From Dyella acidisoli (GTDB lineage Bacteria; Pseudomonadota; Gammaproteobacteria; Xanthomonadales; Rhodanobacteraceae), in the NCBI RefSeq assembly GCF_030160295.1, contig NZ_BSOB01000003.1:1-64000 (forward strand): a stretch of DNA of 64,000 nt, written 5' to 3'. Shown here one piece after another: positions 25,338-57,403 of this stretch. How positions within the stretch are numbered: the first letter of the stretch is position 1; the number at the start of each line of letters is the position of its first letter. Both the position numbers and the translations under genes were made by a program. The notes beneath the pieces are model-generated. The model was not told where the DNA came from, made no database searches, and saw nothing but the letters and a program-made list of their open reading frames with translations.

Positions 25338-25571
25338 TTAGAGGGGCGTGCGGGAGAAGTTGGTTACACCTGCTCCGAATACCGGAAGAGCGGCCTCTTT
25401 GACCTTATTGATCAACAATCGCAAGGCAATGAGATCGTTGCCATAATCGGCAACTTCGTCATCATCCTTCGATGTTTCACAGATATGCGCCCATTTCGCA
25501 TCCAGCTCTGCGAGGGCTTCGAGGATCAACTGTGCCTCACCGGCAACCAAGGGCAGTTCGATCTGTCTCAC
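25338..25571 (-). CDS. 77-residue protein coupled to the Tse2-like toxin, candidate immunity protein
   Basis: A small acidic helical protein (two predicted helices, about residues 8-28 and 35-60; EAQLILEALAELDAKW and DYGNDLIALRLLI). It starts with GTG overlapping the TGA of the toxin gene (GTGA), the arrangement expected of an antitoxin or immunity gene. Its length equals that of P. aeruginosa Tsi2 as I remember it, but the Tsi2 signatures (TLM.AIQ, LPPY) are absent. By position it is the cognate immunity protein; by sequence it is unassigned. Confidence 0.65.
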   Translation of the reverse strand: MRQIELPLVAGEAQLILEALAELDAKWAHICETSKDDDEVADYGNDLIALRLLINKVKEAALPVFGAGVTNFSRTPL

Positions 25572-25945
25572 GCCATCTTTCCTTCTTTCTTGAACACGCG
25601 CGTTGCTTTGAGGGCAAGTTCTTCGAGCAGCCCTTTGTATTTATCAACAGGCATGTTTTGAGCGGGGGCTATACAAAAATGATGGGGTCTGTCGTTGACG
25701 AGCTTCAGGCCAACGGGCAATGGTGTGTTAGGAGGGAAACGCCACACCCATCCTGACATAGGAGAAGCCATGACGCCTTCCTTGTCAAAGACACTTATGC
25801 CCTTTCCGTTAGCGATGACGACGACAATACCGTTCAGGTCTGTTGTGTCCACGTCCCTAGGGCGAACATTCGACAACCTTGGGTTGTCGGTATTGCCTAA
25901 ACGGAACACTTCCTCAGGAACAAGAAAAAACTCGCGATTGATCAT
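25568..25945 (-). CDS. Tse2-like toxin (putative T6SS effector)
   Basis: A 125-residue protein whose second half follows the pattern of P. aeruginosa Tse2. GISVFDKEGV (Ser51) corresponds to GTSVFDRAGV, then come a P..LPVGLKLVND segment (P..IPPDLKVKQD in Tse2), an H-x-x-I-x-P-A-x-x-M motif and a terminal helix Y..LL..LA..ATR. Tse2 is a cytoplasmic toxin with an ADP-ribosyltransferase-like fold. One of two remembered critical Tse2 residues (Ser80) is kept as Ser51, while the preceding Thr is Ile here. The ATG at 25945 has GGAGG seven bases upstream and is preferred to a TTG six bases earlier. Next to ppkA, it could be an effector of this T6SS, or a toxin-antitoxin module. Confidence 0.7.
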   Translation of the reverse strand: MINREFFLVPEEVFRLGNTDNPRLSNVRPRDVDTTDLNGIVVVIANGKGISVFDKEGVMASPMSGWVWRFPPNTPLPVGLKLVNDRPHHFCIAPAQNMPVDKYKGLLEELALKATRVFKKEGKMA

Positions 25946-25980
25946 TCTCAACCCTCCATGAGTAGCTTATTTGTTCGATA

Positions 25981-46153: not shown

Positions 46154-47320
46154 TTAGGAGAACATATCCAACGCGCGCCTTGCCATCGCCGACAGGAAGC
46201 GGAACAACAAGCCAAGTACGTATTCAATGAATCCCACTGTGATCTCGACCGTTGATACGATAGCGCGCCCCATAAACCGCATCGCCGCCGACATCATGTT
46301 GCGGATGGCCTCCGCCAAGCGAATCGATTGCAATGCGCCGCTGTAAAGCAGGCGTGCAAGGGTGTCGAGCACCGTTGTACCGGCGAACAAACCCACGCCC
46401 AATACATTAGCCGGAGCGCTGCGCACCTGCTTAAGAATCCAATCCAATGCGGACAAAATCAATTGCAGCGCAGTAGCCGAGCGCATGATGAAGGGCCCGC
46501 TATCCTTCGCCGCATCCGCAAGCCATTCACTCGCCTTCTCGAAGCTGCTGTGCTTGGGCAGGATCACTGGCAGAGAAGACCAGGTGCAGCCCGCCACGGA
46601 CTTTTCGTATGCGTCGGGCATCGAATGCGCTTCAATGCTTATCAACTTGCCCGGCCCCTTCAGGCGATAGGCATTGCTGCCATAGGGCACATGAAAATAC
46701 GGAAAGATCGGCACCATCGGCACCGGATCGGTATCGTGATAGCAACGGTAAATATCCTGCTCGCCCAATCGGCCGGTGAGGTATTCGGCATGTCCCTCCA
46801 AACCGGAACGTGGCGCACCGAACGTATACAGCCGTACTTTGCTGCCCATGCCGCTCAAGCTGTCGGCAATCAAGGTGGCCATCGCGCCGCCAAGACTGTG
46901 GCCAACGACGTGCAGCGCAGAAGGATTACGCCCTCGCAACTGTTCCGTGATCTGCGGCAGAACAGATTGCGCAGCACGCCAGAAGCCGGTATGAACAATG
47001 TAACCGCTAGGCCCGATAATGCCGCCCATACGCACGTTGCTCAGCCAGTCGTAGCCACTCTTGGGATACGTACCGCGCACGGTAACCAGGCACTCGCCTT
47101 GGCGAGGCCCTTTCCCCCAAGCCACGTAGCCGAAGCCCGTCTGCTGTTCGATCACACCCATGCCAGTGCTTCCCACCACATGGGCGCCACCGGCAATGTC
47201 GAAAGATTCTCGCGCACTCGGCGCCGCTGCCTCGGCAAACCGCATATTTGAACTCAGGCGCACTTGGTAGGTGCTATCGGCAATCTCGGCCGCCTGTATC
47301 GGAGAAAGTTCCATGGCCAT
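46154..47320 (-). CDS. Class 3 lipase family protein, probable T6SS (phospho)lipase effector
   Basis: A 388-residue alpha/beta hydrolase with the lipase-3 pattern: nucleophile Ser142 in HVVGHSLGGAMATL, Asp198 in HDTDPVPMVP and His232 in EAHSMPDAY. There is no signal peptide. The last 130 residues are amphipathic or hydrophobic helices (VLGVGLFAGTTVLDTLARLL, TVEITVGFIEYVLGLLFRFL) that could insert into membranes. It is encoded after a PAAR gene and a DUF6795-like gene, which suggests delivery by the T6SS and attack on lipids. The exact substrate and Tle class are undecided. Confidence 0.82.
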   Translation of the reverse strand: MAMELSPIQAAEIADSTYQVRLSSNMRFAEAAAPSARESFDIAGGAHVVGSTGMGVIEQQTGFGYVAWGKGPRQGECLVTVRGTYPKSGYDWLSNVRMGGIIGPSGYIVHTGFWRAAQSVLPQITEQLRGRNPSALHVVGHSLGGAMATLIADSLSGMGSKVRLYTFGAPRSGLEGHAEYLTGRLGEQDIYRCYHDTDPVPMVPIFPYFHVPYGSNAYRLKGPGKLISIEAHSMPDAYEKSVAGCTWSSLPVILPKHSSFEKASEWLADAAKDSGPFIMRSATALQLILSALDWILKQVRSAPANVLGVGLFAGTTVLDTLARLLYSGALQSIRLAEAIRNMMSAAMRFMGRAIVSTVEITVGFIEYVLGLLFRFLSAMARRALDMFS

Positions 47321-47354
47321 CGTTATCCCCTGAAAGAATTTAAGGAGCCGTGTC

Positions 47355-47849
47355 TCACACGGCTTTGCAAATGCCGTAATGCTTGCCCTCGTAATCTGGC
47401 TGGCGAGTCAGCTCACAAACCAGATTGAGGGGCTTACCGTCGAGCTCTGTGTTGGCGTTGTAGGAAGTCTTGCCGTGCAGCCAAGCGGTGTACTCAACGC
47501 CTTGATACTTGATCGTAATGGTCTGCTGTATCGTCGGCTGCGCCGGAATCAATCTAAGCAAACCCGCCTTACGCTCAATGGACGGAAACGAGAAAGCCCC
47601 CTTGGCATCGCTTACCGCATGCTGCTGAGGAATTTCATTCTCGTCATCCGACCACACCACTTTTTCGATCAGCTCGGCGCCTTCCACAGGCTTGCCGTCC
47701 TTCAACACCGTGCCATGCACTTCAGAAAAAAGAACCAGACGATCGAACGCACCCATCGCACATCCCTCTGACAAGCCCGACAACGAAAACACCAAAACAA
47801 TAAGCAAAACTTTCCAGGCCGAACGCGACATCACCCGCTGTTTTCGCAT
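47355..47849 (-). CDS. Membrane-anchored or secreted DUF6795-like protein, candidate partner of the lipase
   Basis: A 164-residue protein with a hydrophobic N-terminal segment (about 12-30) ending in SEGCAMG; the lipobox is not canonical. The rest is a carboxypeptidase-regulatory-like beta domain (LFSEVHGTVLKDGKPVEGAELI, DAKGAFSFPSI), the pattern I associate with DUF6795. It lies 13 bp after the PAAR gene and 34 bp before the lipase. Export fits periplasmic immunity against a lipase; a loading role is the alternative. ATG 47849 has AAGGGCG upstream. Confidence 0.7.
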   Translation of the reverse strand: MRKQRVMSRSAWKVLLIVLVFSLSGLSEGCAMGAFDRLVLFSEVHGTVLKDGKPVEGAELIEKVVWSDDENEIPQQHAVSDAKGAFSFPSIERKAGLLRLIPAQPTIQQTITIKYQGVEYTAWLHGKTSYNANTELDGKPLNLVCELTRQPDYEGKHYGICKAV

Positions 47850-47862
47850 CGCAGTTCGCCCT

Positions 47863-48150
47863 TCAACCGATCAACACTTTGAAACATCCCAGCACGATCA
47901 CGCCGCCGTGCACGGTGCTGTCACCCAGGCGCGCGACAGGTCGACCGCCAGCCAGAACCTTCGGCGAACCCATGGCGATCGCATCAGGCGGACCCACGCA
48001 TACCGCTATGTCACCCACGCATGCGACAGGCAGGCCGCCGACCAATACGGTAGGCGCACCAGGTGATGCGATCGGGCCGCCGACGTGGGGCACTGGCCCG
48101 GTGGTCATTGGGCAGGTATGCATGTCGGTGAGGCGGGCTGCGGGTTGCAT
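47863..48150 (-). CDS. PAAR-domain T6SS spike tip protein
   Basis: A 95-residue stand-alone PAAR protein that sharpens the VgrG tip and often binds cargo. It shows the family pattern: AARLTDMHTCPM near the start, VPHVGGPI, GAPTVLVGGLPVACVGD, AIAMGSPKVLAGGRPVARLGD, HGGVIVLGCFKVLIG; the Cys and His residues can bind zinc. It is first in the operon PAAR, DUF6795-like, lipase, TPR-methyltransferase. It is the only PAAR protein in the window. Confidence 0.95.
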   Translation of the reverse strand: MQPAARLTDMHTCPMTTGPVPHVGGPIASPGAPTVLVGGLPVACVGDIAVCVGPPDAIAMGSPKVLAGGRPVARLGDSTVHGGVIVLGCFKVLIG

Positions 48151-48287
48151 GAATATCTCCAGTCATCTGTAAGCTCAAAAAGCTCCAATCCTTTGTTACT
48201 AATAACGACTCATCGTTACCAAACCATTTTTGCATGAAGATGATGACGCCGTTTCGACAGGTCTTAGCCGGCTTTTCCAAGGCTTCC

Positions 48288-48554
48288 TTACCGCCCAACC
48301 AGCAAGTAAACCGAATAAATCAGCGTAGCTAAAAGAGCAGCAGGCAAGGTTATCAACGAAAACCAGCCGCTAACGAACATCGCGTACAGCATCTTCCCTA
48401 CGTCCTTCCCCGCGATCACGCATGGACCAACGCCTGCCTCGCTCAGTTGGCACTTCGTGCAGTTCGCCACAGCACCTGCCAGCATAGCCATCAGCAACGG
48501 GACCAGGCCTAAAAAGCCGATCACCAAATAAACCAGCCATGGCTTGAAGTGCAT
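48288..48554 (-). CDS. Small inner-membrane protein, candidate immunity protein
   Basis: An 88-residue protein with two transmembrane helices (about 6-30 and 55-84) and a short loop containing NCTKCQLSEAGVGPC (three Cys). A GAGG site lies seven bases upstream of the ATG. It is encoded after the NGC-x14-H protein gene on the same strand, 124 bp away, in the position of an immunity gene. No family is recognised. Confidence 0.6.
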   Translation of the reverse strand: MHFKPWLVYLVIGFLGLVPLLMAMLAGAVANCTKCQLSEAGVGPCVIAGKDVGKMLYAMFVSGWFSLITLPAALLATLIYSVYLLVGR

Positions 48555-48678
48555 AGCGTGACCTCAACCCAAAAGACGCAAACAAAAAACATATAATTTC
48601 TGTGCTGTTACATCTACCAGCATCCTGACCACTGCTTCCTTTTAAAACCCGCCTAAAACTCACCGCTCTCAATCACCA

Positions 48679-49311
48679 TCAATCGCCGAATACGCCCAGG
48701 TGAACCGGTGGGCCGTCCTTGATCTGCCAGGAGCTGCGCGCGCCGGTAGACTTATTCATCGTCGTCACCACAGCGGTCTGGTAGACGTTCCAGTACGCGC
48801 CGTCTTTAACGCAAATAATGGTGTGCTCAAAATTCTGGCCGACGATGTCGTGATCGCGGCGGTCGGGGAAGCGGCTGAGCGTGCTCATGGCTTTCGCACC
48901 CGGACCTTCATACATGTCGGCTTCTACCCTGCATTTCGCAGCAGACGCGAGCACCGGCATGTGTTTTCCGTCGGAGTCGTGGTAAAACCGATTGCCGGCA
49001 GCGGTCGGATGCACTTCAAGCGCGCAACCGTTCATCGGGAAAGTCACTACCAGCGTTCCGTTCGGCTGCCCGCTGGGCACATCGCAGTATCGCGCCGCGC
49101 CTGATGCGAAAGGGATGAACCAGTCGGTCCCGCCGCCGTCGGCGACATCGATCAAATAAACGCCATCGTTGGTCGTGCACGTCAGAGTGCAATTGCCGCC
49201 CAGCGCGCTGTTGAGTGGCGCGCCACGGCACATGAATCCCCACGCCGCGCAAGCAGTCGCGGGCTGCGTTCTTAGCAAAGCCAGCACTTGTCCAGCAGGT
49301 TTCATCGGCAT
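48679..49311 (-). CDS. Putative cysteine-type toxin, CNF-like deamidase pattern
   Basis: A 210-residue Cys-rich protein without signal peptide. PMNGCALEV (Cys96) is followed by NRFYHDSDG (His111): a Cys-His spacing of 15, the same as I recall for the catalytic Cys866/His881 of CNF1, within a similar strand-turn-strand setting (NGC, then F-Y-H). This is a motif-level resemblance only. Other cysteine hydrolase folds are possible. An AGGAGG site eight bases upstream of the ATG and its place in the effector island support a real effector gene. Confidence 0.55.
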   Translation of the reverse strand: MPMKPAGQVLALLRTQPATACAAWGFMCRGAPLNSALGGNCTLTCTTNDGVYLIDVADGGGTDWFIPFASGAARYCDVPSGQPNGTLVVTFPMNGCALEVHPTAAGNRFYHDSDGKHMPVLASAAKCRVEADMYEGPGAKAMSTLSRFPDRRDHDIVGQNFEHTIICVKDGAYWNVYQTAVVTTMNKSTGARSSWQIKDGPPVHLGVFGD

Positions 49312-49387
49312 TTTGGCGTCCTCCTAGACATGGATCGAATCGTAGCCACCGAACAATTGCAGTTGTAAAACCAACCCCATTTTCCTG

Positions 49388-49846
49388 CTACCCGATGATG
49401 CTCTTAAGCTTGACGTTCCTTCCTTTTACGCCAGACATCGGTACCGAACCATCTTCGGATATGAAATCACTCTTCTTGCCATTGCACTTTTTGCAGATCC
49501 ACCAAAGGTTGTGTGGATCGTTATAAAGCATTCGTACGTGCCGAATCTTGATGATGCCGCCCTTTGAAATATGCGGCCCGGCGACCGCGGCAATGTACTG
49601 ACGCCATGGCCCCATATGATCCAGCTCGAACGAGTCGCCCTTTTTGCCACAGCTAGGACAGATTGAGCCCCATTTGGGTTTTGCCGGAACCCCCATCTTG
49701 TAAAGAATAGACTTGGACAGCCAGCTGACTTTTTTTCGCTCCAGGGTGTTCAAGTTGACCAGGTTCGAGCGAAATCGTGCACCGTGGGACCTCGCCTTTC
49801 TCACGAGCGTCTTAGAATGTGTTTCACCTTTCTTGTGGGATGGCAT
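49388..49846 (-). CDS. HNH endonuclease, candidate DNase effector
   Basis: A 152-residue basic protein. Zinc knuckles C63-P-S-C66 and C118-K-K-C121 surround the HNH core ELDHMGP (Asp76, His77), NDPHNLWW (Asn109, Asn113) and CNGKKSD. The N-terminus is very Lys/Arg-rich. A perfect GAGGAGG site precedes the ATG. It could be an antibacterial DNase, as stand-alone HNH domains often are in T6SS islands, or a homing-type enzyme. No obvious immunity gene follows within 76 bp. Confidence 0.8.
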   Translation of the reverse strand: MPSHKKGETHSKTLVRKARSHGARFRSNLVNLNTLERKKVSWLSKSILYKMGVPAKPKWGSICPSCGKKGDSFELDHMGPWRQYIAAVAGPHISKGGIIKIRHVRMLYNDPHNLWWICKKCNGKKSDFISEDGSVPMSGVKGRNVKLKSIIG

Positions 49847-50049
49847 ATAAACCTCCTCGCACTGACTGGTTGACGTCCGGACGTATCCAATGCTCCTAAA
49901 AATTCACCCTGCCCCCAATCACCTGCTTTCATTCGTCGAACGGACTTCAGTCACGGAAACTCAAACTGCCATTGCGTCAGCCTCTCTAATCCCGGCGAAC
50001 GCGGAAATGGCTGAAAATCACAAAATACACTCCGACCGTTTTTTCTGAT
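49847..50049. other. Intergenic gap in the effector island, nothing recognised
   Basis: About 200 bases with no gene, repeat or clear hairpin. The composition looks poorer in GC than the T6SS core genes. Confidence 0.3.
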
Positions 50050-50562
50050 TCACTTATGCACTGAATCAGGCCCAGATATCCAAGTTGAAGTCCGCTGCTT
50101 TAGATCGACGATGTACTTCCCACCAGCCTCGTTCTCAATCTCGATTTCGTCCCGCTCAGGCAGAAGTCGCATAGTGCGGAAATAACGGCCTGGCGTACTG
50201 ACACCAGCAGCATCCTGACTAGGGACTTCATAAACTTTAAGCATCCACAGCCGTTCACCGGATTTCGGGTCTATAGCGACCAAATAACCGCCGGACTGAG
50301 TTCCACCATGGCTGTAGCTCTGCATGTCCTGCTCATAGCGGACGCCCTTATGTAGGATCGGAGCCACCACAGGGGCGGATGGACGGCTAGGGCTAGGCAT
50401 ATCGTCGTTCATCGTCGTGGTCTCTTGCGAAGTATTTGCGTATGAATGCGCAACATCCTGTGCCACATGAGCTGTTGCGTCCGAAATGAGCGATGCTGAT
50501 GCGTGGTCTGTGCACGCAAAGGCCACCACTATCGCAATCAGCGCAGCCTTATGTATACGCAT
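50050..50562 (-). CDS. Secreted protein coupled to the metallopeptidase, candidate immunity protein
   Basis: A 170-residue protein with a signal peptide ending near HASA (about residue 23). After a Ser/Pro-rich linker it shows a beta-rich domain (GGYLVAIDPKSGERLWMLKVYEV, then EIEIENEAGGKYIVDL). It starts 1 bp after the stop of the peptidase gene, so the two are translationally coupled. A periplasmic inhibitor fits a peptidase that acts in the periplasm. No known inhibitor family is recognised. Confidence 0.7.
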   Translation of the reverse strand: MRIHKAALIAIVVAFACTDHASASLISDATAHVAQDVAHSYANTSQETTTMNDDMPSPSRPSAPVVAPILHKGVRYEQDMQSYSHGGTQSGGYLVAIDPKSGERLWMLKVYEVPSQDAAGVSTPGRYFRTMRLLPERDEIEIENEAGGKYIVDLKQRTSTWISGPDSVHK

Positions 50563-50563
50563 G

Positions 50564-51679
50564 TCAGATCACCCTCAGTGCCTTGTTACGTTCTGCATCG
50601 GTCAACGCACCGCCACAGTCAGCAGCAAAGAATGCCCAGTTGTCTGCATTGCGCACACAATCTGTTATGGGATACCCAGCGTGCGGGCCAATACCATACC
50701 AGGCATAACGATCCTGGCCATTCTTCACATCCAGCGTGCCACATATCAGATGGGACAATTCATGGACAATGATTCTTGTCCAGTTAGCTTGGCCGTGAAC
50801 CACTCCACCAGGATCGTCTGTAAAGAAATTGCTTTCGATATACACGACATCCATGCCCTCGTGTTTGTTCCGAAATGTAAATGCTTCAGATGCCAGAAAA
50901 CCCGCCTCATCCACGTCCGTAGTTCCTCGAAATGGAACCCAGTCTGTCACCACGAAATGGCCTTTATTGAGCGTGGCAATGATGTCCTTGAAGCCCCTGC
51001 TCAATGTTGCAATATGCGTATCGAGAGCGGCATCGGACAGACCAGATTCGGCGAACCATCTCCGCACCATGTCACGTGCCTTGGTCCGCTCGCCCTGGAC
51101 TGAACTGCCGCTAGCGGAAGCATTGGCTAGCAGTATGCTCACTTTTTGGCACCAGGCAATCGCCTGCTGGGTCGAATTGCCGAGATAACGCCGCTGTTGA
51201 TCGGTGAAGTGTTCATCCTTCGCCGCCAGCAGCCGCTTGACAGCGCCAGCGGTGGACGCGTGCGTTTCAAGGAACCTGCTCGGCCAGTCGGTAAATTCCA
51301 CAGGTAGTGAAAAAACCCATACCCGCCGATTACCCGCTTTATTCTGTAGGTAGATGTGCCTCAGAAATTTCAGGCTGGCAGCGCACTTTTTAGTCTCGGT
51401 GTCGATACTACCCGTATCACCGTCGACCCAGCCTTTCGCTGCCTGCAAAATGCCCTTGTCTTCAGAATGCCTGGTCTGACTTGGACCTTTGGTGATGTTG
51501 CCGCGCAACTCGTTTAATGCCGGCTCCTCGGCTGCCTCGAAACCATTGGCCCCCATTACCTTTTCCAATCGCATGACTAGCGATTGCCAGCTTTTTTCGA
51601 AACTGCCGATCTTAGCGACAGAACTTCGTGCAGCTGTATATTCGGTTATAAATTTTTTGACCAATCGATCATATTCCAT
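50564..51679 (-). CDS. M35-like zinc metallopeptidase, probable T6SS effector
   Basis: A 371-residue protein without signal peptide. The zinc site is HELSH at 306-310 with the aspzincin third ligand in GTLD (Asp317), and the family C-terminal signature RNADNWAFFA (about 343-352). The N-terminal 200 residues are helical, with KRLLAAKDEHFTDQQRRYLG in the middle, and unlike any domain I know. Followed immediately by a secreted putative immunity protein. Known T6SS or polymorphic-toxin metallopeptidases of this clan cut proteins or peptidoglycan peptides; substrate here unknown. Confidence 0.82.
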   Translation of the reverse strand: MEYDRLVKKFITEYTAARSSVAKIGSFEKSWQSLVMRLEKVMGANGFEAAEEPALNELRGNITKGPSQTRHSEDKGILQAAKGWVDGDTGSIDTETKKCAASLKFLRHIYLQNKAGNRRVWVFSLPVEFTDWPSRFLETHASTAGAVKRLLAAKDEHFTDQQRRYLGNSTQQAIAWCQKVSILLANASASGSSVQGERTKARDMVRRWFAESGLSDAALDTHIATLSRGFKDIIATLNKGHFVVTDWVPFRGTTDVDEAGFLASEAFTFRNKHEGMDVVYIESNFFTDDPGGVVHGQANWTRIIVHELSHLICGTLDVKNGQDRYAWYGIGPHAGYPITDCVRNADNWAFFAADCGGALTDAERNKALRVI

Positions 51680-51718
51680 TCCCTAGATTCCTAATGAATC
51701 CGACCCTAGTTCCGGCAG

Positions 51719-52135
51719 TCAATTATGTTCCAAAAGGATATGAGTCTTTTCGGCATGTTGACCTCCAAACCATCGACTTGCTGGTCCCAGACCACCTTGG
51801 CCAGTGCCAAACGCAATTGGAGTAAGAAATTTGTTGCCTTGCTGCACCCGGAAGGTCCACTCCTTCGCTGCAATCGTACCCACGGGCGCATTTGTAACAG
51901 CACTATGCCCCCACACCCTCCATTGAATACCAGCAGAAACCCACTCGTACTTGAACCCCCTCTCTGTGCGAGGCCCGGGCACATAGGAATTCAGGGTCCC
52001 TGCAGGGATTAGCGCTGACAAAATGGCAGGCGTCGCCTGTGTTCCAATTTGATTTTCAAAGTCCTGCGCAGTAGGAATGCCTCCGTTTGATGGATTAATC
52101 ATCGCATCAAGTTGCAACATGGTCATATCTGTCAC
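51719..52135 (-). CDS. Small protein resembling polymorphic toxin domain Ntox30
   Basis: A 138-residue protein without signal peptide. The C-terminal 90 residues (RGFKYEWVSAGIQWRVWGHS, WTFRVQQGNKFL and terminal HAEKTHILLEHN) follow the pattern I remember for toxin type 30: a W-R-x-x-x-H strand pair, a W..RVQ.G motif and a terminal TH-I. The AAGGG site fits the ATG at 52135. It lies 39 bp before the metallopeptidase gene on the same strand. Activity and immunity protein unknown. Confidence 0.5.
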   Translation of the reverse strand: MTDMTMLQLDAMINPSNGGIPTAQDFENQIGTQATPAILSALIPAGTLNSYVPGPRTERGFKYEWVSAGIQWRVWGHSAVTNAPVGTIAAKEWTFRVQQGNKFLTPIAFGTGQGGLGPASRWFGGQHAEKTHILLEHN

Positions 52136-52939: not shown

Positions 52940-55675
52940 TCAAGCAAACCCGTACTCAAAATCCTGACCTTTAACTCTTACATTCACTCCTGCAACCGCC
53001 TTGCCTTCGATCATCCGCATAAGGAACTCGCGACTTACGTCCGGCAACATCGTGTTAGTCAAAATCGCATCGATCATGCGACCGCCCGACTCGCTCTCGG
53101 TACAACGGCTTACCACCAGCTTCACTACGTCGTCGTTGTACTCAAACGGAATCTTGTAGCGCGTCTCGATGCGCTTCTTGATGCGGCCGAGCTGCAATTT
53201 CACGATTTCGCCCAGCATGGCTTCACTAAGTGGGTAATAGGGAATCGTCACCAGACGTCCCAGCAACGCGGGCGGGAAGATTTTCAGCAGGGGTTCGCGC
53301 AGGGCCTTCGCCATGCCATCGGGTTCGGGCATCAAGTCTGGGTCCTTGCACATGCTGGCGATCAGCTCGGTGCCGGCATTGGTGGTAAGCAGAATCAAGG
53401 TGTTCTTGAAGTCGATCTGGCGACCCTCGCCGTCTTCCATCATGCCCTTGTCGAACACCTGGAAGAAGATTTCGTGTACGTCGGGATGCGCTTTTTCCAC
53501 TTCGTCCAACAGCACCACGCTATACGGTTTACGACGCACTGCTTCGGTGAGTACGCCGCCTTCACCGTAGCCGACGTAGCCGGGAGGTGCGCCTTTGAGC
53601 GTGGAAACGGTGTGCGCTTCCTGGAATTCGCTCATGTTGATAGTGATGAGGTTTTGCTCGCCGCCGTAGAGTGCCTCGGCCAATGCGATGGCGGTTTCGG
53701 TTTTGCCGACGCCGGAGGTGCCGGCGAGCATGAAGACGCCGATCGGCTTGTTGGGGTTGTCGAGGCCTGCGCGCGAGGTTTGGATGCGCTTGGCGATCAT
53801 TTCCATGGCGTGGTCCTGGCCGATCACGCGCTGACCCATGAGCCTGGCCAAGTTCATCACCGTTTCCAGCTCGCTCTTCACCATGCGACCGACCGGAATG
53901 CCGGTCCAATCCGCCACTACCGAACCTACGGCGGTGTAATCGACGGTGGGCAGGATCAACGGATGCTCACCTTGCAGTTCGGCGAGTTGCGCCTGCAGTC
54001 CGTGCAGCTCTTCGAGCAACGCAGCGCGTTCGGTATCGCTGAGTTCTTCCGGCACATGGGCAGCTTCTGCTTCGGCGGCTGCGGCTTTTTCAAGCTTGCT
54101 ACCGGTGCCTTCCACCGGGGAATGATCGCCGCGCAGCTTGGCGCGAATGATAAGGATCTTTTCGACCAGCGCCTTCTCGGCCTGCCAGTTGGCTTCGAGT
54201 TTTTCCAGTCGCGCTTTTTGATCGGCAAGCTTTTCGTTGGCAACGGATTCACGCTCGGCCACATTTACGCCTACGGTCTTTTCGCGGGCAATAATCCCAA
54301 GTTCCGTTTCCAGTGCTTGAATGCGCTTGCGCGTGTCGTCCACTTCCGGCGGCACGGCGTGCTGGCTGATGGCAACGCGTGCGCAAGCCGTATCGAGCAA
54401 GCTCACTGCTTTGTCCGGCAGCTGGCGCGCGGGGATGTAGCGATGCGAAAGCTTGACCGCAGCTTCCAGCGCTTCATCGAGGATCTGCACGCGGTGGTGC
54501 TTTTCCATCACGCTGGCGACGCCACGCATCATCAGGATGCCCTTTTCTTCGCTGGGCTCGTCTACTTGCACAGTCTGGAAGCGGCGCGTAAGGGCGGGGT
54601 CTTTCTCGATGTGCTTTTTGTATTCGGCCCAGGTGGTGGCGCCGACCGTGCGCAGGTTGCCGCGTGCAAGTGCTGGTTTCAGCAGATTGGCGGCATCGCC
54701 TGTGCCCGCTGCGCCACCAGCGCCAACCAGCGTGTGGGCTTCGTCGATAAAAAGAATGATCGGCTTGGGCGAGGACTGCACTTCCTCGATCACCTGGCGC
54801 AGGCGGTTTTCGAATTCGCCTTTCATGCTTGCGCCGGCCTGCAGCAGGCCGACGTCGAGCGTGCGTAGCTCCACATCTTTCAACTGCGGCGGCACATCAC
54901 CAGCAACGATCCGCAGCGCGAAACCTTCCACCACGGCGGTCTTGCCCACGCCGGCTTCGCCAACCAGCATTGGGTTGTTCTGGCGGCGGCGCATCAAGAT
55001 GTCGACCACCTGGCGGATTTCTTCGTCGCGTCCGACGATGGGGTCGATCTTGCCATCGCGTGCTTGTGCTGTGAGGTCAACCGTGAATTGGCGTAACGCT
55101 TCCTGCTTGCCCATCTGCGCCGGCGGCATCGCCCCGCTGGCCTCGCCCGGTACTGCAGCGCTGCCGATGCGGAAACCGTCGTTGGCACTCTGCCCGTCCT
55201 CTGGTGAGCCGCTGACCACTTCGGCAAACTTCTCCGCCAAGGTTTCCGGCTTGACCTTCTCGAATTCCTTGGAGATGTTGAGCAAGGTGTTACGCAAGTG
55301 GCGCGTGCGCAATGCACCGAAAATGAGATAGCCGCTGCGTACCTGCGCCTCGCCGAACATCAACGTGGCGAATACCCAGGCGCGCTCGACGGCTTCTTCC
55401 ACATCGCTCGACAGGTCGGAGATGGAGCTGGAACCGCGCGGCAGGCGGTCCAGTGCTTCGGTGACGTCGCGCGCCAAGTTGGATGGATTGACGTTGAACT
55501 GTTTGACGATGCGGTGCAGATCCGAATCCTGCAACTGCAGGATCTGGTGAATCCAATGCACCAGCTCGACATAAGGATTGCCACGAAGCTTGCAGAACAC
55601 GGTGGCGCTTTCGATACCACGATAGGCGAGCTTGTTGAGCTTACCGAACAGTGCACTACGACTGATTTCCGCCAT
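52940..55675 (-). CDS. clpV: T6SS sheath-recycling ATPase ClpV (TssH)
   Basis: A 911-residue class I AAA+ unfoldase that takes apart contracted TssB/TssC sheath. The Clp N-domain with the ClpV-specific start (ISRSALFGKLNKLAYRGIESA) is followed by AAA domain 1 (GEAGVGKTAVVEG; IILFIDEAH), the middle coiled coil (about 420-540) and AAA domain 2 (LAGTSGVGKTETA; VVLLDEVEKAHPD). Both Walker A and B pairs are intact. Length is normal. A hairpin directly follows the stop. Confidence 0.96.
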   Translation of the reverse strand: MAEISRSALFGKLNKLAYRGIESATVFCKLRGNPYVELVHWIHQILQLQDSDLHRIVKQFNVNPSNLARDVTEALDRLPRGSSSISDLSSDVEEAVERAWVFATLMFGEAQVRSGYLIFGALRTRHLRNTLLNISKEFEKVKPETLAEKFAEVVSGSPEDGQSANDGFRIGSAAVPGEASGAMPPAQMGKQEALRQFTVDLTAQARDGKIDPIVGRDEEIRQVVDILMRRRQNNPMLVGEAGVGKTAVVEGFALRIVAGDVPPQLKDVELRTLDVGLLQAGASMKGEFENRLRQVIEEVQSSPKPIILFIDEAHTLVGAGGAAGTGDAANLLKPALARGNLRTVGATTWAEYKKHIEKDPALTRRFQTVQVDEPSEEKGILMMRGVASVMEKHHRVQILDEALEAAVKLSHRYIPARQLPDKAVSLLDTACARVAISQHAVPPEVDDTRKRIQALETELGIIAREKTVGVNVAERESVANEKLADQKARLEKLEANWQAEKALVEKILIIRAKLRGDHSPVEGTGSKLEKAAAAEAEAAHVPEELSDTERAALLEELHGLQAQLAELQGEHPLILPTVDYTAVGSVVADWTGIPVGRMVKSELETVMNLARLMGQRVIGQDHAMEMIAKRIQTSRAGLDNPNKPIGVFMLAGTSGVGKTETAIALAEALYGGEQNLITINMSEFQEAHTVSTLKGAPPGYVGYGEGGVLTEAVRRKPYSVVLLDEVEKAHPDVHEIFFQVFDKGMMEDGEGRQIDFKNTLILLTTNAGTELIASMCKDPDLMPEPDGMAKALREPLLKIFPPALLGRLVTIPYYPLSEAMLGEIVKLQLGRIKKRIETRYKIPFEYNDDVVKLVVSRCTESESGGRMIDAILTNTMLPDVSREFLMRMIEGKAVAGVNVRVKGQDFEYGFA

Positions 55676-55774: not shown

Positions 55775-56002
55775 TCAGTGATTCACCAGTTTCTGGTAGG
55801 GAGGCAGATGGCTCGTGGTTCGCTGTATTTCTTCATAACCATCTCGAAGCTCCTGCAAGGCTCTCTCATAGCTCAGGAGAAGCCGCTCCAGGTCGCCGGC
55901 GCCGGACGCATCATGCGCACCGAGCTGCTCCTCGATGTCGTTGATCTTCGAATGGACGGCTTGTATCGCCATCATCAATGTCAAACCGCTGATGTGAGAC
56001 AT
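55775..56002 (-). CDS. Tsi2-like immunity protein, orphan copy 1
   Basis: A 75-residue acidic helical protein matching P. aeruginosa Tsi2 (77 residues, as I remember it) in its marker blocks: GLTLMMAIQAV (TLMVAIQCV in Tsi2), LERLLLSYERA (LEQLLVGYDLA), LRDGYE (LKNAYE) and SHLPPYQKLV (SGLPPYDRLI). Tsi2 forms a dimer of two-helix hairpins that blocks the toxin Tse2. No toxin gene adjoins it; it lies between tssG and clpV with a paralogue 75 bp upstream. Ribosome site weak (GGTGGG). Confidence 0.75.
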   Translation of the reverse strand: MSHISGLTLMMAIQAVHSKINDIEEQLGAHDASGAGDLERLLLSYERALQELRDGYEEIQRTTSHLPPYQKLVNH

Positions 56003-56030
56003 GTTGTTAGCCCACCGACTCGTATCGCTA

Positions 56031-56057
56031 CGTTAGGTTTTACGCCCCAACCCGCAA
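56031..56057. repeat. Decayed GTAG-type REP
   Basis: GTTAGGTTTTACGCCCCAACCC, a single eroded copy of the REP family, between the two Tsi2-like genes. It is the only member seen to the right of 25.3 kb. Confidence 0.45.
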
Positions 56058-56077
56058 CTGCTCCATACCGTATCGAG

Positions 56078-56314
56078 CTACTCCAGAAGCTCCTCATAGG
56101 GAAGCAGATTCTTTGAGGTCTTCTGTTCGTCGATATACAGCCGCTTCAACTCCATCTTCGCTTTGGAATAGGAAAGTAATTCCTCTTCCAGATGGGAGAT
56201 CTCGGGATCTTCTGCGGCTTCGATTTGCTCTTGCAGCTCCTTGACCTTCGCATCAACCGCGAGGACGCACATCGTTAACGTGTGAACACTGATCGTCATA
56301 GCCATGACTTTCAA
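56078..56314 (-). CDS. Tsi2-like immunity protein, orphan copy 2
   Basis: A 78-residue paralogue of the previous protein with the same block order: HTLTMCVLAVDAKVKELQEQI, ISHLEEELLSYSKA, LKRLYIDEQ and NLLPYEELLE. The start is probably the TTG at 56314: an AAGGAG lies seven bases upstream, while the ATGs at 56305 and 56299 are too far from it. It follows tssG by 66 bp, so it is likely co-expressed with the T6SS sheath operon. Confidence 0.7.
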   Translation of the reverse strand: MKVMAMTISVHTLTMCVLAVDAKVKELQEQIEAAEDPEISHLEEELLSYSKAKMELKRLYIDEQKTSKNLLPYEELLE

Positions 56315-56380
56315 CTGCGTGCTCCTTCGTACTTCCCTTTAATGCCGGACTTCCATTGCAACGCCGATTTGACCGGCGCC

Positions 56381-57403
56381 CTATCCCACTGGCCTCAACA
56401 CCACATCATCGTTATCCGCTTTGCGCTGCGGCTGCCCCAACCAGGTGGTCAACCCCATGCGCCCGTTCTGCCCTAAACGTGTAGTCGGCACTTCCTCTTG
56501 CTTGAGCACAAGTTGCACGTCCCACACCTTCTCTTCACCGACGTACGTCTTCACTGCTGCAATCAACTGCCGCAGCGCTTCGCCGCCTGGCAGAAAGTTG
56601 CTGAACTCGGCGCGCGTCAACGGTCCCAACCGCAAGCGGAAACGTTGTTGCGCGCCCCACACGTATTCGCCCAGCACGGCCGTCGTGCCGAGGCCGGCAA
56701 CTTCGCGTGATTGCCCGAGCTTCAGGTGCGCCGTGCCAGGCAAGCGCATCCAATCAGCAACGAACTCGACAACACGCACGGGGATGCCAAAGAAATGTTC
56801 GAGAAGATGCTTCAAGCCTTCCGCATTCCGTGCTTGCGCCAGCAAGCGCCCTGCGAAGAAATGCTTGTAGCGGTCCGGCAAGGCATCGCGCGACTGCAAA
56901 TTGGGTGTCGACAATCCCACCAGTGCGCCCATGTAGAGACTGAAGCGATCTTCGCCGGGGCGATCCAACTGCACCGTGGGCTGTGCATCTGCCCAGGCGC
57001 GGTAGAACAGGCTCAGCATACGGTGATGGAAGATGTCGGCGAACGCGACGAATGTGCTGTCCCGCTCGTGGTGCTTGCGCTCGAGCGCATACTCAGTCAG
57101 GTGCAATGGCAATGGCGCATTGGGTCCGAACAGGCCGAAGAACAGGCCATACATGCGCGGCGGCTTGCCTTCCGCCTGCTGATCGAAGCGTTCCACGGTG
57201 CGTGGCGCGAAGGCCAGCGAAGGCGTTTGGCACAAACGCACGGCGTCTTCCGCCGGTTTGGCGGAATGCCCGAAACGGGGCTTGTCCGGATACGCGCATT
57301 CGAGCCAGCGCAGCGCTTCGAAAAACTCGAAGGCTTCCGGCTGATCGCGCAGCGCATTCTGCAGCGCTACAAGATCTGGCGTTTGCCGAGTCGTGCCGAC
57401 CAT
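56381..57403 (-). CDS. tssG: T6SS baseplate protein TssG
   Basis: A 340-residue wedge protein of the baseplate that works with TssF and TssE. Family features: FFEALRWLECAYPDKPRFG near residue 24, GLFFGLFGPNAPLPLHLTEYALER, FHHRMLSLFYRAWADAQP, LLEHFFGIPVRVVEFV, and the C-terminal RLGQNGRMGLTTWLG. Its first 37 bp overlap the end of tssF; GAGGTGG supports the ATG at 57403. Confidence 0.95.
   Translation of the reverse strand: MVGTTRQTPDLVALQNALRDQPEAFEFFEALRWLECAYPDKPRFGHSAKPAEDAVRLCQTPSLAFAPRTVERFDQQAEGKPPRMYGLFFGLFGPNAPLPLHLTEYALERKHHERDSTFVAFADIFHHRMLSLFYRAWADAQPTVQLDRPGEDRFSLYMGALVGLSTPNLQSRDALPDRYKHFFAGRLLAQARNAEGLKHLLEHFFGIPVRVVEFVADWMRLPGTAHLKLGQSREVAGLGTTAVLGEYVWGAQQRFRLRLGPLTRAEFSNFLPGGEALRQLIAAVKTYVGEEKVWDVQLVLKQEEVPTTRLGQNGRMGLTTWLGQPQRKADNDDVVLRPVG

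Follow-up and report, generated by a model that had tools for sequence, protein, structure and literature searches.

Two orphan Tsi2-family immunity genes between tssG and clpV of Dyella acidisoli are probably left from two Tse2-Tsi2 modules

The window analyzed here is a stretch of 64,000 nucleotides from Dyella acidisoli (RefSeq assembly GCF_030160295.1, contig NZ_BSOB01000003.1, positions 1 to 64,000). It contains an operon for a type VI secretion system (T6SS), and two small open reading frames (ORFs) on the minus strand, here called A and B, are located in the gap between tssG and clpV, in the order tssG-B-A-clpV. The best explanation, to which we assign a probability of about 0.75, is that A and B are immunity proteins left from two Tse2-Tsi2 modules, the toxins of which have been lost while the antidotes were kept. 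Gene A (55775..56002) encodes 75 amino acids (aa), and gene B (56078..56299) encodes 73 aa from the ATG at 56299. The start of B in the ORF list, a TTG at 56314 that would yield a 78-aa form, is doubtful; the ATG seems to be the likelier start because it aligns with the start of the relative from Frateuria flava and because the preceding bases resemble a toxin-antidote junction.

Judged by profile matches and predicted structures, A and B are true members of the Tsi2 family, as had been proposed in a sequence-only reading of this DNA. A scored 54.8 bits with Pfam PF21643 (T6SS_Tsi2-like, cut-off 27 bits) and 100.6 bits with NCBIfam NF052667 (Tsi2_fam, cut-off 70 bits), and the respective values for B, scored in its 78-aa form, were 31.1 bits and 70.9 bits, the latter barely above the cut-off. 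A phmmer search against PDB sequences returned Tsi2 entries as best matches for both proteins, with E-values of about 1e-10 (A) and 5e-4 (B). AlphaFold models of the monomers, built on five-sequence alignments, had a mean predicted local distance difference test score (pLDDT) of 88 for A and 93 for B, and for each of them the top ten Foldseek matches were all Tsi2 chains, with TM-scores by query length of 0.84-0.94 and best E-values of 2.8e-4 (A) and 2.2e-3 (B), none being below 0.001 for B. The block pattern of Pseudomonas aeruginosa Tsi2, which had been ascribed to both proteins, is reproduced exactly by A, whereas B has it only in part (TLTMCVLAV, LLPY).

Toxin-paired relatives of both genes are present at the same site in other species, which supports the view that A and B are orphan, defensive immunity genes. 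In Dyella nitratireducens, tssG is followed by a Tse2-type ORF of 148 aa (L071:1375-1821, PF18648 63.3 bits), a Tsi2 gene, and clpV, and this Tsi2 is 69% identical to A. In F. flava, the order is the same with a different Tse2-type ORF of 148 aa (L110:1413-1859, PF18648 61.5 bits), and the gap Tsi2, which scores above the Pfam cut-off (28.9 bits) and below the NCBIfam cut-off (64.6 bits), is 66% identical to B. The gap of Dyella mobilis contains a single B-like Tsi2 gene without a toxin, and its product, 51% identical to B, stays below both family cut-offs (Pfam 23.0 bits, NCBIfam 62.5 bits). In a phylogenetic tree that took in 18 of 30 Tsi2 sites, B joins the gap Tsi2 of F. flava (support 93) and then that of D. 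mobilis (99), and A groups with the gap Tsi2 of D. nitratireducens and with a further Tsi2 of D. acidisoli itself, on contig C20 (86). The sequence-only reading had assumed a duplication with subsequent divergence, and A and B are indeed adjacent, of nearly equal length, and of the same family, as expected for an in-place duplication of one immunity gene. However, they are only 38% identical to one another, versus 69% and 66% to the gap proteins of other species, and they are found in separate clades of the tree. Because each of them groups with the toxin-paired Tsi2 of a different species, and not with the other, the duplication was rejected on the tree and is regarded as very improbable.

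Among the 30 Tsi2 sites, which do not include three weak places (G125, G156, and G064), an adjacent Tse2 match was found at 12, a partial match at two, and none at 16; the toxin profile used for this count was home-made from ten sequences, and divergent toxins may escape it. At one of the 12 paired sites (G070 C25), the home-made Tsi2 profile gave no match. Orphan Tsi2 genes may be common in these genomes, because Tsi2 matches exceed Tse2 matches in D. mobilis (G015, 5:1), G043 (2:0), G058 (4:1), and F. flava (G072, 7:3). The ratio is reversed in D. acidisoli (5:6) and D. nitratireducens (G014, 2:4), and the numbers are even in G070 and G104. F. flava contains a second Tse2-Tsi2-like pair directly 3' of clpV (L110:4864-5376 and L034).

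A search for TssG in the family Rhodanobacteraceae yielded 85 places distributed over 80 of 233 genomes, and the gap was read at 51 of these places (ranks 1-50 and 57), the remaining 34 being more distant. Tsi2 was sought in the gaps by blastp with A and B (E 1e-3), which a very divergent Tsi2 could escape, and was found in four of the 51, i.e., in D. acidisoli, D. nitratireducens, D. mobilis, and F. flava. Another 46 gaps have a length of 27-206 bp, contain neither a Tsi2 gene nor another large insert, and are too short for a missed Tsi2; in Dyella flagellata and Dyella choica, members of the same genus, the gaps are 78-80 bp long. The last of the 51 (G029) contains an unrelated insert of 1.27 kb that has an open frame spanning about 360 aa. 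Of 80 named tssG loci, 73 are followed by clpV (the seven without a clpV start downstream were excluded), and a profile search detected Tsi2 in three of the 73, all of them already in the first survey. A wider search of the order found the Tsi2 family in ten of 398 genomes, in one of the ten weakly. Other inserts with short ORFs are present in tssG-clpV gaps of Thiorhodococcus and Thiocystis (L193, L194, L197, and L134, a list that includes the G029 insert); these short ORFs presumably resemble parts of a toxin-antitoxin module.

In D. acidisoli the gap is flanked upstream by tssG (56381..57403, minus strand; Pfam PF06996, 350 bits) and downstream by a gene for a ClpB/ClpV-type AAA+ ATPase (52940..55675, minus strand; Pfam AAA_2, AAA_lid_9, and ClpB_D2-small), which was named clpV from its place in the T6SS operon. 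A simple scan of the gap revealed no promoter- or terminator-like site. Together with the location of A and B on the same strand between the two structural genes, the lack of a terminator-like site would fit a recruitment of both proteins as sheath, baseplate, or ClpV helpers, which had also been considered from the sequence alone. However, this idea is unsupported, because 47 of the 51 relatives have the same operon without A/B-type genes, and two of the four carriers have Tsi2 as one half of a Tse2-Tsi2 pair. With Tsi2 in just four of 51 gaps, a structural role was rejected as hardly credible. No Tse2-type toxin accompanies A and B, as had been noticed before: the profile PF18648 has no match in the gap, a toxin upstream of B is missing, and besides A and B, the ORF list of the gap has no entries other than overlapping antisense frames. 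The accompanying statement that a toxin would have no room is correct for D. acidisoli but overlooks that in two relatives an entire Tse2-type gene occupies exactly this site.

Possible traces of the lost toxins are found directly in front of both genes. The gap DNA aligns with that of D. nitratireducens over 239 bp (69% identity), from the last base of the toxin stop codon through most of A, and with that of F. flava over 229 bp (67%), beginning just before the ATG of B. Searches of the gap for toxin remnants by blastn and tblastn alone gave nothing significant. The leader of A (56003..56023, minus strand) matches the spacer between the toxin stop and tsi2 of D. nitratireducens in 15 of 21 bases, a match reached by 0 of 20,000, 1 of 10,000, and 0 of 5,000 shuffles in three tests. 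In front of B, positions 56311..56331 (minus strand) might represent the last codons of a lost B-type toxin, because they read YEGARS-stop, compared to YEDAHS-stop at the end of the F. flava toxin, and have the same distance to the tsi2 ATG as in F. flava. When anchored at the tsi2 start, the match between the B leader and the F. flava junction was reached by 3 of 10,000 and 3 of 5,000 shuffles. The cross-comparisons, i.e., the A leader with the F. flava junction and the B leader with the D. nitratireducens junction, gave no match. Among 16 references, of which at least four anchors (G104, G070C64, G043, and G072C5) are not exactly at the tsi2 start, the best match of each leader was the junction of its own clade-mate, and the next best was reached by 40 of 5,000 (B) and 23 of 5,000 (A) shuffles. 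Contig C20 offers a clearer case of the same toxin loss beside an intact Tsi2 in the same genome: here, the orphan Tsi2 is preceded by 29 codons from the tail of a Tse2-type toxin, and these are 69% identical to the end of the D. nitratireducens toxin. In a Rhodanobacter genome (G257), Tsi2 is located beside about half a Tse2.

The genome of D. acidisoli (5.34 Mb, listed as 99.98% complete) contains six places with a PF18648 match and five Tsi2 matches, and A and B might thus confer immunity in trans to at least one of the six Tse2-like toxins encoded elsewhere. Also in favour of this view, four of these toxins have small neighbours that are not Tsi2 proteins and have only a putative immunity role. 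However, when the gap toxins of D. nitratireducens and F. flava, which represent the matching modules, were compared with the D. acidisoli genome, the best matches apart from the C20 fragment were 44% (62 bits) and 37% (39 bits) identical, and both were to the toxin at C10, which is already paired with an adjacent Tsi2. A close full-length toxin is not present elsewhere in the assembly for either gap toxin. The Tse2-like toxin at C61 is also paired with Tsi2, and each of the other four is adjoined by a small ORF. Due to the poor matches of the gap toxins and the neighbours that the toxins of this genome have of their own, a role of A and B in trans is quite unlikely. One of the six genes, at 25568..25951 (minus strand, PF18648 49.4 bits), is located in the window about 30 kb from A and B. 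Its product is weakly similar to the gap toxin of D. nitratireducens and has no detectable similarity to that of F. flava; with this weak similarity and a 77-aa neighbour of its own, it was discarded as a partner of A and B. The small ORFs following the four Tse2-like toxins have lengths of 77 aa (25338-25571, minus strand), 167 aa (L138:7763-8266), 57 aa (L140:193-366), and 57 aa (L139:6872-7045). None of the four has a match to the Tsi2 profile or a convincing match to another family, and the 167-aa ORF appears, by eye, to consist of two similar halves. They may represent a second kind of immunity partner for Tse2-type toxins.

A and B also differ from their flanks. The proportions of synonymous and nonsynonymous differences (pS and pN) are 0.74 and 0.20 for A and its relative and 0.82 and 0.20 for B and its relative, with saturated synonymous sites in both comparisons, and third positions account for 40 of 72 (A) and 45 of 73 (B) differences. 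At conserved residues, A has more synonymous differences than tssG (p 0.011) and clpV (p 0.002) of the same two genomes, and B has more than tssG of its respective two genomes (p 0.014). This excess over the flanking genes suggests that the modules have had a different history; another mutation or codon regime is the alternative. The GC content is 0.54 for A and 0.49 for B, compared to 0.61 for tssG and 0.59 for clpV. In relative-rate tests, the orphans did not evolve significantly faster than their paired relatives.

We infer the following course of events. Two different Tse2-Tsi2 modules would have entered the tssG-clpV gap, the A-type module probably first. The B-type module would then have been inserted between tssG and the A module, thereby displacing toxin A, and toxin B would have been lost later, leaving tssG-B-A-clpV. 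A and B would be expected to share the transcript of the T6SS operon and to bind and block Tse2-type toxins that enter the cytoplasm, and they probably still guard against neighbours that carry such toxins.

Several observations weigh against this course of events or against a continued protective function. The precedence of the A-type module is derived from its position alone, and the order within the trio of A is unsettled, as the best tree places A nearer to C20 than to the D. nitratireducens Tsi2 (69). The toxin scar in front of B is suggestive only: its gapped extension is insecure, because 139 of 3,000 shuffles at the protein level reach the match, and with an unrelated toxin as control, the gapped test on DNA likewise came to 5 of 3,000. 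The leader of the D. mobilis orphan fails to match the junction of F. flava, its value being attained by 8,131 of 10,000 shuffles, and the anchored test missed the toxin tail at C20 that was found by tblastn (3,197 of 10,000 shuffles). One relative-rate comparison leans toward a faster evolution of A (7:1, p 0.07). The low pN/pS may predate the loss of the toxins, which leaves selection after the loss undated. An open frame is too weak as a proof of function and was rejected as such, because, at 0.2 substitutions per site, about one quarter of simulated ORFs of this short length remained open without any constraint. Lastly, the isoelectric point (pI) of A, which is less acidic than its toxin-paired relative (5.4 versus 4.5), and the serine of B at the position of Asp45 of P. 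aeruginosa Tsi2 are compatible with some relaxation or with another toxin specificity. A and B could therefore be neutral relics that no longer protect and are heading for loss, as the pI difference, the fairly frequent survival of short ORFs under neutral drift, and the occupation of the site in only four of 51 relatives would allow. Against this stand the intact frames with scores above the family cut-offs, the confidently predicted Tsi2 folds, and the third-position bias of the differences, all of them undated relative to the toxin loss, and we consider neutral relics to be rather unlikely.

Several known systems are comparable to the retention of antidotes proposed here. P. aeruginosa Tsi2 (PA2703) protects against the bacterium's own Tse2, and its Glu38 is reported to be one of two major determinants of Tse2 binding (PMC3325213). 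A and B have the sequence family, the length, the predicted fold, and Glu38, which is kept in all five gap Tsi2 proteins, in common with it. They differ in having no toxin, in their location inside a structural operon, and at the position of Asp45, which is replaced by E in A and by S in B. In the T6SS of Vibrio cholerae, orphan immunity arrays are made by effector displacement, and a duplication was argued against because of the closer kinship to genes of other genomes (Kirchberger 2017, PMC5361080). Common features are immunity genes without effectors in a T6SS cluster, partial effector remnants, and the closer relation of each orphan to paired immunity genes of others than to one another. 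However, the V. cholerae arrays follow an effector-immunity module on its 3' side, at the ends of clusters, whereas the D. acidisoli genes belong to the Tse2/Tsi2 family, have no remaining toxin, and are located between tssG and clpV. Recombinase-associated (rAID) arrays likewise consist of orphan immunity genes that protect against the T6SS of others; in contrast to these, the ORF list of the D. acidisoli gap, which alone was scanned, has no recombinase-sized ORF. PADLOC gave no match. Beyond clpV, cargo-like genes (46154-52135, minus strand) encode a class 3 lipase, a DUF6795 protein, an HNH protein, an M35-type peptidase, and an Ntox30 domain. Among the papers listed by a literature search, which left out most subscription papers, none dealt with orphan Tsi2 genes or with the tssG-clpV gap of Dyella; the "Tse2" of PMC13340143 is an unrelated metalloprotease, and PMC6653060, as far as consulted, does not mention Tse2.

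Orphan immunity by displacement is thus already known from V. cholerae, and the present case is distinguished by its family (Tse2/Tsi2), by its location in the tssG-clpV gap, and by the lack of any toxin. The displacement model, so far described for Vibrio, is extended to Tse2/Tsi2, with immunity genes that ride between structural genes of the operon and not at the end of a cluster. As sister taxa have toxin-paired relatives of both orphans in the same gap, the specificity of each orphan is directly testable. Tentatively, and with somewhat less than even odds, the gap might repeatedly have served Tse2-Tsi2 modules of the Rhodanobacteraceae as a docking site, and D. acidisoli might represent a toxin-free, operon-driven end state that records two past toxins. 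If so, a memory of immunity would be made whenever the weapon is built.
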